The notes beneath the pieces were generated by a model. That model was not told the origin of the DNA. It was given only the letters and a program-made list of their open reading frames with translations, and made no database searches. Below, in pieces: positions 14,188 through 20,456 of a DNA stretch of 20,456 bases. The translations under genes were made by a program, and so were the position numbers. This DNA is from a virus, in the IMG/VR virus record IMGVR_UViG_3300046517_000079, positions 1 to 20,456 of that record; one strand, 5' to 3'. Every line of letters begins with the position of its first letter. Position 1 is the stretch's first letter.

Positions 14188-14801
14188 GATACACCCGCTG
14201 AAGTTTTTCTAGCATTTACAATAGCGAATTGATTCTTATCTCCATTCGCCACAGCATAACCACCATGTTCAGTTGAGATATCAGTCTTTGATAGAAAATC
14301 ATTATCATACTTATAATTATTGCCTAATTTCATGTCTGCTTTGGTGAGCAGGATGTTCCTACCATGAGTGACAAAAATATAATTATCATCAGTTTTATCA
14401 TATAGAAACTTATTTGCAAACGGTATATATTTCTTTGCCCACTCGTCAACAGTTCCCCCGTTTGGAATTTGTTCTTTAGGATTCTTTAGAAAATGCTGAA
14501 CATCTTCTTGATATGTATCTGTAGATTTCCCGACATATTCTCCCAAATCAAGTGGAAGTAATTCATTACGTGATTCAACTTGTAATCCAGTTGCTTCAGA
14601 AATAATATCGGCAGTATCTCTAGTCCTTGATAATGGTGATGTAAAAATCTTTTTAAAGTCAACTTTAGATTTAGCTAATTTGTCACCAATAGCAACGGCT
14701 TCATCTACACCTTCTTTAGTTAGTGGAACATCTTTTAGTCCATGAAACTTACCTTTAGTTCCCTTAGCATCACCATGTCTTACTAGATATACATTAGCCA
14801 T
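14184..14801 (-). CDS. Histidine phosphatase superfamily protein (phosphoglycerate mutase-like)
   Basis: 205 residues. VYLVRHGDA (4-12) contains the RHG signature with catalytic His9. FTSPLSRTRDTADII (53-67) provides the phosphate-binding Arg, and VTHGRN (144-149) the second His. In many family members an acid Glu sits in an LxExxxGxWxG motif. Here LPLDLGEYVG (82-91) puts Pro83 at that place, with Asp85 and Glu80 nearby, so catalysis may be altered. There is no signal peptide, so it acts in the cytosol. The gene is coupled by TAATG to the large terminase and by TTGA to the next gene. Substrate unknown: nucleotides, phosphosugars or phosphoproteins are possible. Confidence 0.88.
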   Translation of the reverse strand: MANVYLVRHGDAKGTKGKFHGLKDVPLTKEGVDEAVAIGDKLAKSKVDFKKIFTSPLSRTRDTADIISEATGLQVESRNELLPLDLGEYVGKSTDTYQEDVQHFLKNPKEQIPNGGTVDEWAKKYIPFANKFLYDKTDDNYIFVTHGRNILLTKADMKLGNNYKYDNDFLSKTDISTEHGGYAVANGDKNQFAIVNARKTSAGVS

Positions 14802-16474
14802 TAGTATCGCCTCTTATGAAATCTACTAACTACTTGCATCTTGTTGGTAGACTCCACAGTTCGCATATTACGATAGTATGCTGTCCAATCTTTGTTATCT
14901 TGCAAAGCTCTAGTTATTGCATCGCGCTTCTGTATTTTGGCAAATTCATTACTAGCTTCCGTAAAATATCTATCTGCTGTATCACAAGCATAACGTAAGT
15001 CATCATAGGGGTCATCCCCATCAAACTCCGCTACGTCTTCAGCAGGTTTACCATCTTTAGTTTTTCTATCATATGAGCACGCGCGAATAGTATCAATCAT
15101 TAATGGACAACAGTTAGGATGACCTTCGTGAAAAGGTTCCTCGCAACAGAATATTTGTAATCTAGGAATATCAGTCTCAGGTTCTGGTGGGTCGAATAAA
15201 TGCAGGTAATCCTTGTATGATTCTAATCCCTTATTCCTAAGAATCCACATAGCATATTCTTCGGAATAGACTGGCATCTCAGATGGAGGAATAACAGGAC
15301 GTGGCTTCCATCTAAGATATTCGTGAACCATCATTTTACCAGAGATCCGCGAACCTGGTGTATTAGCTGATAGTTCAATAGGCTTCTCTAATTCCTGTTC
15401 AATCTGTTGCTGAATAGTATGTTCTTGTCCTCTGTCTTGATTAGCTGAACGACAGAACTTAATTATTCTAGGATTCTCTTTATCAATATCATCTTTAACT
15501 ACTGGTCCCCATTCCGCTATCTTAGTCTTGAGCCAATACCGTTCACGATAAAGATATACTCTCCCTTGAGGCGATACGGCATAATATCCAATATATGCCA
15601 TAGCCGCAAATCCCCAATCACCTATTACAAATCTAGGCCACCATTCAGGGATTTCGAAAGGTTGCACTACGTGTAATGCGTTCGCAGGTTCATCAGGATA
15701 TCTTTTCTCTCTAAACTCATCAAAGACTTGTCCTTGATAAGAATCCCAATCTCCATACTTTCTAGCTTTACGTTCTGCTTCATTTGGAATACCATCTAGT
15801 CTCTTAGAATATTCTGGGTCCGCGTGTGGATTATCTGCTACAGTAGAATGAATATAAATTCGTTTTACTCCACCTTTCCCAATGATGATTTTACCACCTT
15901 CAGGATATGGAGCGACGAATCGCTTTTTAACAAATGTATGTCCAATACCTCCAGGCATTCCCGCTGCTCTAATGATAGCAGGAAGGTTTCTAACAGAGGT
16001 TCTAACTCTGGTGAATCCAATATAAAGATATATGTATTCTGTAGAAGATGTGAGTTCGTCAGGAGTAAAGAGATTAATTTCCATTGAGTCGTATTTATGG
16101 ACATCGTTTTCTTCCTCGCAATGCGCAAGGAAAATCATAGCACCCTGATTAGCTAATCCAGTTCCACCGTATTGGTCTAATCTAGGGAATGTCCAAGTCA
16201 TGTCTGTCTTATTGAATGATGCACCAAACTTAGGATATATTTCGCGACTCCGCGGGACTATTTCATTACGTAGTTCAGGAAATGTTCTTCTAAGAAATAC
16301 TTGTTTGAATGCGGGATTCTCATGCCATCGATGCACAAGACCATACATTAATAATACGTCTGACTTACCAGAAGCGTTTCCTCCACCATATAATCCTTCG
16401 AATATAGATAGAGGTAGAGAAAGAAATTGTTCTTGTTTAGGAGTTGGCCTCCAGAATCCTTTATCAAAGGCCAC
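14801..16474 (-). CDS. terL: Terminase large subunit (DNA packaging ATPase and nuclease)
   Basis: 557 residues. YGGGNASGKSDV (29-40) is the Walker A of the packaging motor. A Walker B-like MEINLFTPDEL (131-141) supplies Asp139 and Glu140. The C-terminal RNase H-like nuclease is marked by RFVIGDWGF (281-289, Asp286) and by DDPYDDLRYACD (487-498). A Cys/His-rich stretch (FCCEEPFHEGHPNCC, 442-456) could bind a metal. It cuts DNA and drives it through the portal. Start is GTG at 16474, which overlaps the preceding TAG stop (TAGTG). The preceding small genes include the likely small subunit, separated by three intervening small genes, which is unusual. Confidence 0.96.
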   Translation of the reverse strand: MAFDKGFWRPTPKQEQFLSLPLSIFEGLYGGGNASGKSDVLLMYGLVHRWHENPAFKQVFLRRTFPELRNEIVPRSREIYPKFGASFNKTDMTWTFPRLDQYGGTGLANQGAMIFLAHCEEENDVHKYDSMEINLFTPDELTSSTEYIYLYIGFTRVRTSVRNLPAIIRAAGMPGGIGHTFVKKRFVAPYPEGGKIIIGKGGVKRIYIHSTVADNPHADPEYSKRLDGIPNEAERKARKYGDWDSYQGQVFDEFREKRYPDEPANALHVVQPFEIPEWWPRFVIGDWGFAAMAYIGYYAVSPQGRVYLYRERYWLKTKIAEWGPVVKDDIDKENPRIIKFCRSANQDRGQEHTIQQQIEQELEKPIELSANTPGSRISGKMMVHEYLRWKPRPVIPPSEMPVYSEEYAMWILRNKGLESYKDYLHLFDPPEPETDIPRLQIFCCEEPFHEGHPNCCPLMIDTIRACSYDRKTKDGKPAEDVAEFDGDDPYDDLRYACDTADRYFTEASNEFAKIQKRDAITRALQDNKDWTAYYRNMRTVESTNKMQVVSRFHKRRY

Positions 16475-18215: not shown

Positions 18216-18449
18216 TTATGAAACAGTAATAGATAGAGTCTGACCCGTTCCGCTAATAGTTCCAGTAATAGTAGTAACACCAGTCAAGTCAAATTCCTTC
18301 TCAGGCGGACTATTAGTATCTCCACCTGTGAATGCCTGAAGGATTCTCCTATCTGGCAAAAATAGAAGAGCCCCTAAGTTAGGAAATACAGCAGCAGTAT
18401 TCTGAATATTGGGACCGGACTTAGCTGTGATTGTGAGTGTAGCAGGCAT
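18216..18449 (-). CDS. Small beta protein, first gene of the minus operon
   Basis: 77 residues. AAGGAG lies nine bases before the ATG. The sequence is Thr/Gly/Ile-rich with beta strands (TLTITAKSGPN, then VTTITGTISGTGQTLSITVS at the end) and a central FPNLGALLFLPDRRILQAF. It resembles in composition the other small beta proteins of this window (near the capsid and terminase genes), but no shared motif is clear. It is the first gene after the 670-base control region, so it is probably transcribed from there. Virion or moron function possible. Confidence 0.8.
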   Translation of the reverse strand: MPATLTITAKSGPNIQNTAAVFPNLGALLFLPDRRILQAFTGGDTNSPPEKEFDLTGVTTITGTISGTGQTLSITVS

Positions 18450-18660
18450 CTTTCTTTCTCCTTATCTAACCTATCCTAAAAATAATATTGTCCGTTTTTC
18501 AGTCGGACCATTGGATTCGATAGTCTACCATACCTTAGACTGAAAGTCAAATTTCTGTGTATGTATAATATTATCATGTTACTATATATGGGACCCTATT
18601 TTTAAACTTTATATACATTTTAATTTATACAATTGTTTCCCGTCTGATGATTGGAATATC

Positions 18661-18922
18661 GCGCAATTGTGTGCACATATGGTACCTACTGTGCAGATGT
18701 GTATAGGAGTGTGAAGGGTCATTGTGTATAATAGTGTGCAATTATGCGCAACAATAACCATGCCATTTATTTTCGTACAGAACTGCACATCATTGCACAG
18801 TATTGCATAAGTATTTCCTTATGCCAGGTGCAACCGTGTGCATGTTGGCATGAATAATAAAGTGTGCAATTATGTATAGTTATGTGCAGTTCAGATACCA
18901 TGCCATAGTGCAATTATGTGCA
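18661..18922. repeat. Iteron-like array, consensus GTGCAATTATGTGCA
   Basis: Six 15-bp units read from the sequence: 18661-18675 (2 mismatches), 18736-18750 (1), 18784-18798 (on minus, 1), 18828-18842 (3), 18864-18878 (2) and 18908-18922 (exact). Each is two GTGCA half-sites separated by 5 bp (one helical turn apart). A weaker GTGCA copy lies at 18691-18705 and single half-sites at 18886 and 19090. Spacings vary from 36 to 75 bases. This fits binding sites for an initiator protein or a cooperative DNA-binding regulator. Confidence 0.8.
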
Positions 18923-18958
18923 ATCGTAGGAAGAAATGTAAACACGCGGAAATTGTAA

Positions 18959-18988
18959 TTGGCATAAGAAAAATAAAATGTGTATAAT
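18959..18988 (+). promoter_or_regulatory. Candidate sigma70 promoter toward the plus-strand genes
   Basis: TTGGCA (18959-18964, one mismatch to TTGACA), an 18-base spacer, then TATAAT (18983-18988, exact). TATAAT is embedded in the palindrome TATAATATTATA. The predicted start near 18995 would give a long leader before the first plus gene. It overlaps a TTGGCAT motif, which could allow repression. Confidence 0.5.
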
Positions 18989-19010
18989 ATTATAAATCTG
19001 AGCAAATCTG

Positions 19011-19060
19011 TGATGACACTATTTGGTTGACAAAAGGTGTCAAAGTGACGTACTTTGTCA
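19011..19060. promoter_or_regulatory. Operator-like TGACA/TGTCA cluster
   Basis: A perfect palindrome TTGACA-N5-TGTCAA lies at 19027-19043. Around it are TGACA at 19014-19018, TGAC at 19046-19049 and TGTCA at 19056-19060, the last two forming a second, shorter inverted pair. The TTGACA halves also look like divergent -35 boxes but no good -10 follows at 16-18 bases. A repressor-type operator just upstream of the plus-strand genes is the best reading. A further CTGACA occurs near 19099. Confidence 0.55.
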
Positions 19061-19119
19061 GTTCAAAATTATACACTATTACATATGATTGCACACTCTG
19101 ACATTCCATTATAGTTGGC

Positions 19120-19326
19120 ATGTCGTATGCTCTATATTATTGTATGAATTACATCACAGTCACAATCGACCAAGCACCAGCAGGAACTTCGCGTTACATT
19201 TATGTTCCTGCCAAGTATGTAAGTTTCGCTAATGGTTTTATTTGGGCCATGGGCGAATGGGGAACTTACAAAACTGTTCAAGAGCTTGCGCAAATTCCCG
19301 GCGCATTTTTTCCGAAAGGCAGGTGA
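19120..19326 (+). CDS. Hypothetical 68-residue protein, first plus-strand gene
   Basis: 68 residues from ATG 19120; a second start, Met9 at 19144, is possible and is where G+C visibly rises. Neither has a good Shine-Dalgarno. The C-terminal 60 residues look protein-like: VTIDQAPAGTSRYIYVPAKY, then SFANGFIWAMGEWGTYKTVQ and ELAQIPGAFFPKGR. The family is unrecognised. It lies directly after the operator-like cluster and just before a strong promoter, so it may be an early protein expressed from the control region. An opposite-strand frame over the same bases is poorer in composition and is not called. Confidence 0.6.
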   Translation: MSYALYYCMNYITVTIDQAPAGTSRYIYVPAKYVSFANGFIWAMGEWGTYKTVQELAQIPGAFFPKGR

Positions 19327-19333
19327 AATATTC

Positions 19334-19362
19334 TTGACATCGTTCGCGAGTTGTGATAGAAT
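19334..19362 (+). promoter_or_regulatory. Strong sigma70 promoter with extended -10
   Basis: TTGACA (19334-19339, exact), a 17-base spacer, then TAGAAT (19357-19362, one mismatch). TG at 19354-19355, one base before the -10, makes an extended -10. The predicted start is near 19369, leaving a leader of about 39 bases before the ATG at 19408 with AGGAGA at 19395. It is the clearest promoter in the window. Confidence 0.85.
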
Positions 19363-19407: not shown

Positions 19408-19758
19408 ATGGAAACCAAGGTCGCGTCTTTCACGTTCAAGGTTCCCGAGGGTCATCCTGAACAGGGTAAGAAAATCGAAAAGGCTTTCGATTACAAACTC
19501 TGTAACACTCTCGACGAAGCACAGAATGTAATGACTGAAAAGGAATGGTCATTGCTGGATATGGTAAATGATACGCTCAAGGCTAACGCGCGTAGCAATG
19601 CGTATCAGGCTGCACTTCTGCCATATCGTCCGTCTGAAGTTTCTGCCGATGACATTAAGGAGCGTATGATTCGGGATTATATCCGTTTGGGTATTCCCGA
19701 GGATACGGCGCGTAAGCAAGTCGAAGCTTTGCTTGCTGCTAGCTCGGCCGCGAAGTAA
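19408..19758 (+). CDS. Hypothetical early protein, 116 residues
   Basis: Starting at ATG 19408, seven bases after AGGAGA, rather than the ATG at 19390, which lacks a Shine-Dalgarno. 116 residues. The N-terminal part is beta-rich (VASFTFKVPEGHPEQGKKIE). A helical C-terminal region follows (EKEWSLLDMVNDTLKANARS, then DIKERMIRDYIRLGIPEDTA and RKQVEALLAASSAAK). The C-terminal helices could be a small three-helix or winged domain. G+C is visibly higher than in the minus-strand genes. It sits behind the strongest promoter, so it is probably highly expressed early in infection. Function not recognised. Confidence 0.85.
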   Translation: METKVASFTFKVPEGHPEQGKKIEKAFDYKLCNTLDEAQNVMTEKEWSLLDMVNDTLKANARSNAYQAALLPYRPSEVSADDIKERMIRDYIRLGIPEDTARKQVEALLAASSAAK

Positions 19759-20068: not shown

Positions 20069-20079
20069 TAGACTGAGAC

Positions 20080-20098
20080 ATAAGCTCCCCCAGCTTAT
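20080..20098 (+). terminator. Hairpin after the last plus-strand gene (weak terminator candidate)
   Basis: ATAAGCT (20080-20086) and AGCTTAT (20092-20098) form a perfect 7-bp stem with a CCCCC loop. The following bases (CTTAAAATAC) lack a T-run, so intrinsic termination is doubtful. It lies 11 bases after the stop of the 45-residue gene. Confidence 0.4.
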
Positions 20099-20255
20099 CT
20101 TAAAATACTCGGAGCCATGCTAAATGCGTAGCATAGGTTGTAATCCGAAGTCTGCCTATCAATAAATAACAATATTATTAGTTATAATATTATATTGTAT
20201 GTTGTTAGTGTAGAACATATGCTCAATAACACTATTCGAACCTACATATAGCTGA

Positions 20256-20289
20256 TTCTAGGCTAATACCCGTCGCTTTCTAGGCCAAT
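20256..20289. repeat. 12-bp direct repeat TTCTAGGCYAAT
   Basis: Two copies, 20256-20267 and 20278-20289, 22 bases apart start to start, differing at one position (T or C). CTGATTCT also occurs twice nearby (20252 and 20297). It may be a protein-binding pair; no function can be assigned. Confidence 0.5.
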
Positions 20290-20355
20290 CCTAACCTGAT
20301 TCTCACCGATGAAAACGCCGTAAGTGACTGACTGACAGTGAGTTAGCCGATAGGT

Positions 20356-20374
20356 GGGAGGGAGGGAGTAGGGG
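20356..20374 (+). other. G-quadruplex motif
   Basis: Four G-runs GGG-A-GGG-A-GGG-AGTA-GGGG with loops of 1, 1 and 4 bases meet the usual four-run G-quadruplex pattern on the plus strand. It stands out against the A+T-rich surroundings. It is 50 bases upstream of the long T-run. Confidence 0.65.
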
Positions 20375-20423
20375 CAATTCATCACTTTTGACTACAGTTA
20401 GGGAGTCTGGGTGTTGTTATTTA

Positions 20424-20446
20424 TTTTTTTTTTTTTTTTTTTTTTT
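20424..20446. repeat. Homopolymer run of 23 T
   Basis: An uninterrupted T-run ten bases from the window edge. It is unusually long for a phage genome and could be real, a sequencing artefact, or an end-of-contig artefact. On the minus strand it is a poly-A tract. Confidence 0.75.
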
Positions 20447-20456
20447 AATAATATAA

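Follow-up and report, generated by a model that had tools for sequence, protein, structure and literature searches.

The TGTGCA array of this phage is best explained as a multi-site operator or enhancer within a divergent control region at the early/late junction, a reading in which we place moderate confidence. The window, meaning the whole stretch of DNA analysed, is the complete IMG/VR record IMGVR_UViG_3300046517_000079 (20456 bases), a tailed-phage fragment. Its 670-bp gap at 18450-19119 contains 11 TGTGCA/TGCACA sites, and the array is flanked by a pair of conserved sigma70-type promoters that point away from each other, leftward into the structural operon and rightward into the F6 operon. 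The repeat unit is the 6-mer TGTGCA, placed head-to-tail with a 10-bp period, and the 15-mer GTGCAATTATGTGCA is made of two such units. The array comprises the following features:

18661 to 18922, no strand assigned: TGTGCA array of 6-bp units, head-to-tail with a 10-bp period, in both orientations, conserved among relatives
18908 to 18922, plus strand: best 15-mer, 0 mismatches, two half-sites
18784 to 18809, minus strand: reverse-oriented run, the exact pair TGTGCAATGATGTGCA and a third unit (TATGCA) 10 bp further
19080 to 19095, minus strand: outlying paired site TGTGCAATCATATGTA, 2 mismatches
18642 to 18718, minus strand: promoter-proximal conserved block CACTCCTATACACATCTGCACA..GGTACCATATGTGCACACAATTGCGCG..CCAATCATC, with several units in 10-bp phase

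When searched at ≤3 mismatches, the 15-mer matched nine times in the window, at 18661, 18736, 18784(-), 18794(-), 18828, 18864, 18874, 18908, and 19080(-). The first-pass annotation had listed six copies with 0-3 mismatches, one of them reversed, at 18661-18922, and these were recovered at 18661, 18736, 18784(-), 18828, 18864, and 18908. It had also placed the repeats exclusively in the gap; this holds for all nine 15-mers, but the outlying site at 19080-19095 extends beyond the 18661-18922 interval. The gap is not the only large non-coding stretch, as had been thought, since approximately 20069-20456 at the contig end is also without a convincing gene. Dinucleotide shuffling of the gap gave a mean of 1.17 TGTGCA/TGCACA sites (maximum 6) against the 11 observed; for the 15-mer the shuffle mean was 0.11 (maximum 2) against nine, and for 10-bp pairs at ≤2 mismatches it was 0.22 (maximum 5) against 12. 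None of 2000 gap shuffles reached any of the three observed counts, and the array thus passed the shuffled-sequence control proposed for it. Shuffling the whole window gave a mean of 0.93 15-mers (maximum 5), compared to nine. The proposed separation of half-sites by one helical turn, as a cooperative DNA-binding protein would use, was borne out by the head-to-tail 10-bp units.

Presence in related genomes had been set beforehand as a further test of the array. A terminase search yielded 53 relatives and a search with the F6 protein yielded 67 loci; the F6 loci and the window were reduced to 55 non-redundant upstream regions. We called a locus array-bearing if it held ≥4 TGTGCA sites, a threshold of our own choosing on which some counts depend, and 22 of the 55 loci, the window counted, had an array in the corresponding gap. 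The pair TGTGCA-N4-TGTGCA at ≤1 mismatch was found in 17/22 related records, against a single hit overall for the reversed-pattern control. In array-bearing loci, averaged flanks of the TGTGCA sites reveal a second unit at ±10 bp, and same-strand spacings peak at 10, 20, and 30 bp, while another class falls at 25, 35, 45, and 55 bp. When spacings of up to 80 bp on one strand are counted in these loci, 42 of 141 equal 5 modulo 10, a class partly inherited among related loci, which places some sites on opposite DNA faces. The units were more conserved than the remaining array DNA in 6/6 informative pairwise alignments (p from 0.19 to 0.0016, near or below 0.05 in four of the six), for example 87% vs. 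75% between the window and the relative L021; one additional alignment was left out because the pair was too alike. The promoter-proximal block is also conserved in sequence among relatives. The array always lies between F6 and F3 in the relatives, with its core approximately 80-220 bp upstream of the structural promoter at a distance that varies among them. The phages carrying this locus are an undescribed group.

In the relatives the gap is bordered by F3 and F6, the genes that open the leftward structural operon and the divergent rightward operon, respectively, and the leftward genes in the window comprise the terminase large subunit and structural genes. Rfam and tRNA scans were empty. The setting of the array is as follows:

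18522 to 18550, minus strand: structural-operon promoter, TTGACT-N17-TAGACT with TG before the -10, sigma70-type
18538 to 18548, no strand assigned: inverted repeat GACT-TTC-AGTC (minus strand), conserved, overlapping the -35 hexamer of the structural promoter
18545 to 18640, no strand assigned: AT-rich segment between array and late promoter
19028 to 19042, no strand assigned: palindrome TGACA-N5-TGTCA, present in array-bearing and array-less relatives alike
19120 to 19326, plus strand: small conserved ORF of 68 aa, between array and F6 promoter
19334 to 19362, plus strand: F6-operon promoter, TTGACA-N17-TAGAAT with TG before the -10, sigma70-type
19408 to 19758, plus strand: F6, first conserved gene of the opposite operon, unknown family, 54-84% identity to relatives
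18216 to 18449, minus strand: F3, first gene of the structural operon, 77 aa
17160 to 17711, minus strand: F4, helix-turn-helix-bearing protein, probable small terminase from its gene position
14801 to 16474, minus strand: terminase large subunit

The F3-side promoter (AAATTTGACTTTCAGTC...TGnTAGnCT) is conserved in 47 loci; of the 37 with a measurable spacing, 36 have 17 bp. On the F6 side the form TTGACA-N17-TGnTAGAnT occurs in 21/55 loci with drifting spacer sequences. The inverted repeat at the structural promoter is a possible separate operator.

We favor the operator reading because the array far exceeds shuffled controls, recurs in relatives, and has units better conserved than their surroundings, and because both flanking promoters are conserved, with a fixed 17-bp spacing and drifting spacer sequences, and the array always lies between F6 and F3. 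A small protein would occupy successive half-sites, each a helical turn from the next and all on one side of the DNA, cooperate with its bound neighbors, and bend or coat the region. Binding of this kind could shift activity between the structural and F6 promoters during infection, with either activation or repression as its net effect on the structural promoter. The variable distance between array and promoter is looser than expected of a classical activator and counts against this reading, as do the 5-modulo-10 spacings and the lack of a binder among the genes scanned. A protein that binds the array would be either a newly recognised sequence-specific DNA-binding protein or a host regulator without a known role in phages.

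No gene confined to array-bearing phages was found. The winged-helix-like small protein C14 was rejected as the binder; it occurs in four array-bearing genomes and one array-less genome and is missing from two other array-bearing ones. F4 was rejected as a type-specific binder, its helix-turn-helix being nearly invariant with and without the array, and F6 gave a middling structural model (pLDDT 77, pTM 0.36) with no fold match. None of the early and late protein trees separated the array types convincingly; the low change count of the C27 tree was set aside, C27 being a shadow ORF of C25 and one of 43 tests. In 18 relatives, most of them fragments or of uncertain completeness, we found no integrase (0/18), no phage-encoded sigma54 activator, and no matches above cut-off to RHH_1 (ribbon-helix-helix), to the OmpR-type domain, or to HTH_17, the model used for AlpA/excisionase-type proteins. 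With no integrase in these relatives, a lytic life style is likely. Since no phage gene tracks array type, the binder may be host-encoded, or it may be a shared phage protein with an unrecognised fold. One of the contigs (G017, 62483 bases, behind locus L047) carries tail and polymerase genes in two diverged copies, probably because two phages were joined in its assembly.

Precedent for the operator reading comes from phage 186, where the operators of Apl lie between promoters as 6-bp direct repeats spaced by a helix turn and are bound cooperatively, with bending of the DNA (PMC7498355). The array resembles these operators, and Cox/Xis-type sites, in having direct repeats of approximately 6 bp one helical turn apart, several in a row. 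It differs in having more sites, in both orientations, and in its flanking promoters, which diverge whereas pR and pL of 186 converge. Further, the phages studied here have lytic gene content, and neither an attachment site nor a recognisable Apl/Cox/Xis gene was found. The resemblance is one of working mode only, and membership in the Apl type fails because neither an integrase nor an excisionase-type gene turned up in the 18 relatives.

Two other regulators use sites of comparable layout. Lambda CII sites (TTGC-N6-TTGC) flank the -35 hexamer and occur once per promoter. The array reads the same wherever T precedes TGCACA, but its sites are many and lie approximately 100 bp or more upstream, and a CII homologue was not found. 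In OmpR/PhoB-type response-regulator boxes, too, short direct repeats follow one another at intervals of about one turn, often several in succession; the array shares this repeat layout, and no OmpR-type domain scored above cut-off in the 18 relatives.

The first-pass annotation had called the array iteron-like and proposed a replication initiator as one possible ligand. A replication origin, in which a phage or host initiator binds the array and opens the adjoining AT-rich segment, is in our judgment unlikely. As in iteron-type plasmid and phage origins, the repeats sit beside an AT-rich stretch, and divergent operons are a natural origin location. The 120-bp segment centred at 18579 is 76% AT, fourth highest among the separated AT peaks in the window, but similar peaks occur elsewhere. 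The most AT-rich 120 bp of the whole record are found immediately upstream of the structural promoter in three relatives (G011, G019, and G027), and elsewhere in most other records. The iteron label does not fit the repeats themselves: iterons are tandem, of one orientation, and approximately 17-22 bp long, whereas the array is built of 10-bp units in both orientations, variable in number and in spacing, with spacings in multiples of 5-10 bp. DnaA boxes were rejected because only TGCACA is conserved and the TTWT part is not (flank table). The array is also dispensable, being absent from close relatives that keep the same replication genes, and array type does not follow the replication-protein trees. 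Type required five changes on the DNA polymerase tree (shuffled mean 4.7) and four on the tree of the DUF3987 primase/helicase-like protein (shuffled mean 5.6). Early gene content had to be taken from relatives, as the window reaches no further than the margin of the early region. The 57 early-region proteins scanned in three relatives included no replication initiator (Rep) family and no ParM-like gene; among those identified were cold-shock proteins, a SNF2-type helicase, a DUF3987 protein, an AAA_24 ATPase, a PD-(D/E)XK nuclease, and a DNA polymerase A whose N-terminal part is a uracil-DNA glycosylase domain (L057:10693-13248 and relatives).

Array-less relatives mostly carry a different element in the same place. 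The core TGGCAYG-N4-TTGC was found in 27/33 array-less loci vs. 2/22 array-bearing loci (p = 7e-8, which overstates independence because the loci are related). The two elements are thus almost mutually exclusive, and only two loci hold both. The core mostly sits where the proximal array unit would be, in a shared context with GGTCCCATA upstream and GCAATCATCTGACT downstream. By sequence it matches the -24/-12 core of sigma54 promoters, with a variable N4, and we refer to it as sigma54-type; as the core was itself the search pattern, only its position and flanks count as independent evidence. Unlike usual sigma54 promoters, which have A/T after TTGC, 85% of the array-less relatives' matches have C/G there, and these phages encode no recognisable activator. 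The window gap contains no match to TGGCAY-N5-TTGC. On the terminase tree array and sigma54-type loci are interspersed, and well-supported branches force at least four to five changes.

It is possible, though doubtful, that the early/late junction holds an exchangeable control cassette, either the TGTGCA array or a sigma54-type promoter, each tuned to the host transcription system. If so, close phage relatives would hand structural-gene control to different host regulators. It would be unusual for phage structural genes to be preceded by a sigma54-type promoter, and no such case appeared among the titles and abstracts listed in our literature searches. The related proposal that the array is the target of a host transcription factor, with phages re-tuning the region to their host by carrying the array in some cases and the sigma54-type promoter in others, we regard as quite unlikely. 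It draws on the near-exclusive alternation of the two elements, the repeated type changes on the TerL tree, the lack of any phage gene that tracks type or of a phage sigma54 activator, and two Bryobacterales metagenome-assembled genomes (MAGs), behind L304 (G036) and L364 (G038), that contain 162 and 33 exact TGTGCA-N4-TGTGCA pairs against 0 for the reversed control. It is weakened by the C/G bias after TTGC and by the 60 other genomes of the order, which hold 0-1 pairs each. The pairs in the two MAGs are clustered and partly within repeated intergenic elements, and may be coincidence. A terminase search of bacterial genomes for a host found no relative, and with two pair-rich MAGs against 60 others at 0-1 we rejected Bryobacterales as the host and claim none.

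The array also lies upstream of an operon with the large terminase and the probable small terminase F4. A packaging (pac/cosB-like) site, touched once per helical turn by a ring-shaped small terminase, would account for this position and is very unlikely in our view. The helix-turn-helix of F4, a protein assigned as small terminase by position, does not differ between array-bearing and array-less phages, and small terminases of pac phages are reported as weak or non-specific DNA binders (PMC9611059). P88-like P2 phages likewise have TGCACA arrays close to the portal gene, and certain other phages have them close to terminases, but the P88 parallel is ambiguous because ParM and a partition protein adjoin that array. 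The same P88-like gene content, together with the likeness of the 10-bp direct repeats, in their two opposed clusters, to ParR-type sites, would suit a centromere-like partition site with a ribbon-helix-helix protein as its ligand. That explanation is highly improbable given the likely lytic life style, the lack of RHH_1 matches above cut-off, and the absence of ParM-like genes from the set of early proteins scanned. In three P88-like phages (L222, L252, and L411) a three-unit TGCACA array lies between the ParM/partition genes and the portal gene. We make no claim of cross-phage enrichment of three-unit arrays because P2-like prophages dominate among the matches listed and the reversed control holds a CpG.

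This control region is conserved, its repeat code is clear, and close relatives carry a swapped alternative to it; it thus offers a direct route to how lytic phages time the expression of their structural genes and to whether they borrow host regulators.

Some further features were observed around the locus. The contig end of the window (20069-20456) is non-coding with a T run, and in most near-full-length relatives, too, the contig stops after F6 and before the early gene that follows, which suggests a repeat-rich or genome-end region. The upstream regions of L006, L007, L011, L012, L044, and L054 contain many intergenic copies of the palindrome CTTCCGGAAG, and the regions upstream of F6 in L009, L030, L041, and L056 carry a second repeat family (GGATTAGC/CTAATC) in non-coding DNA beyond F6.
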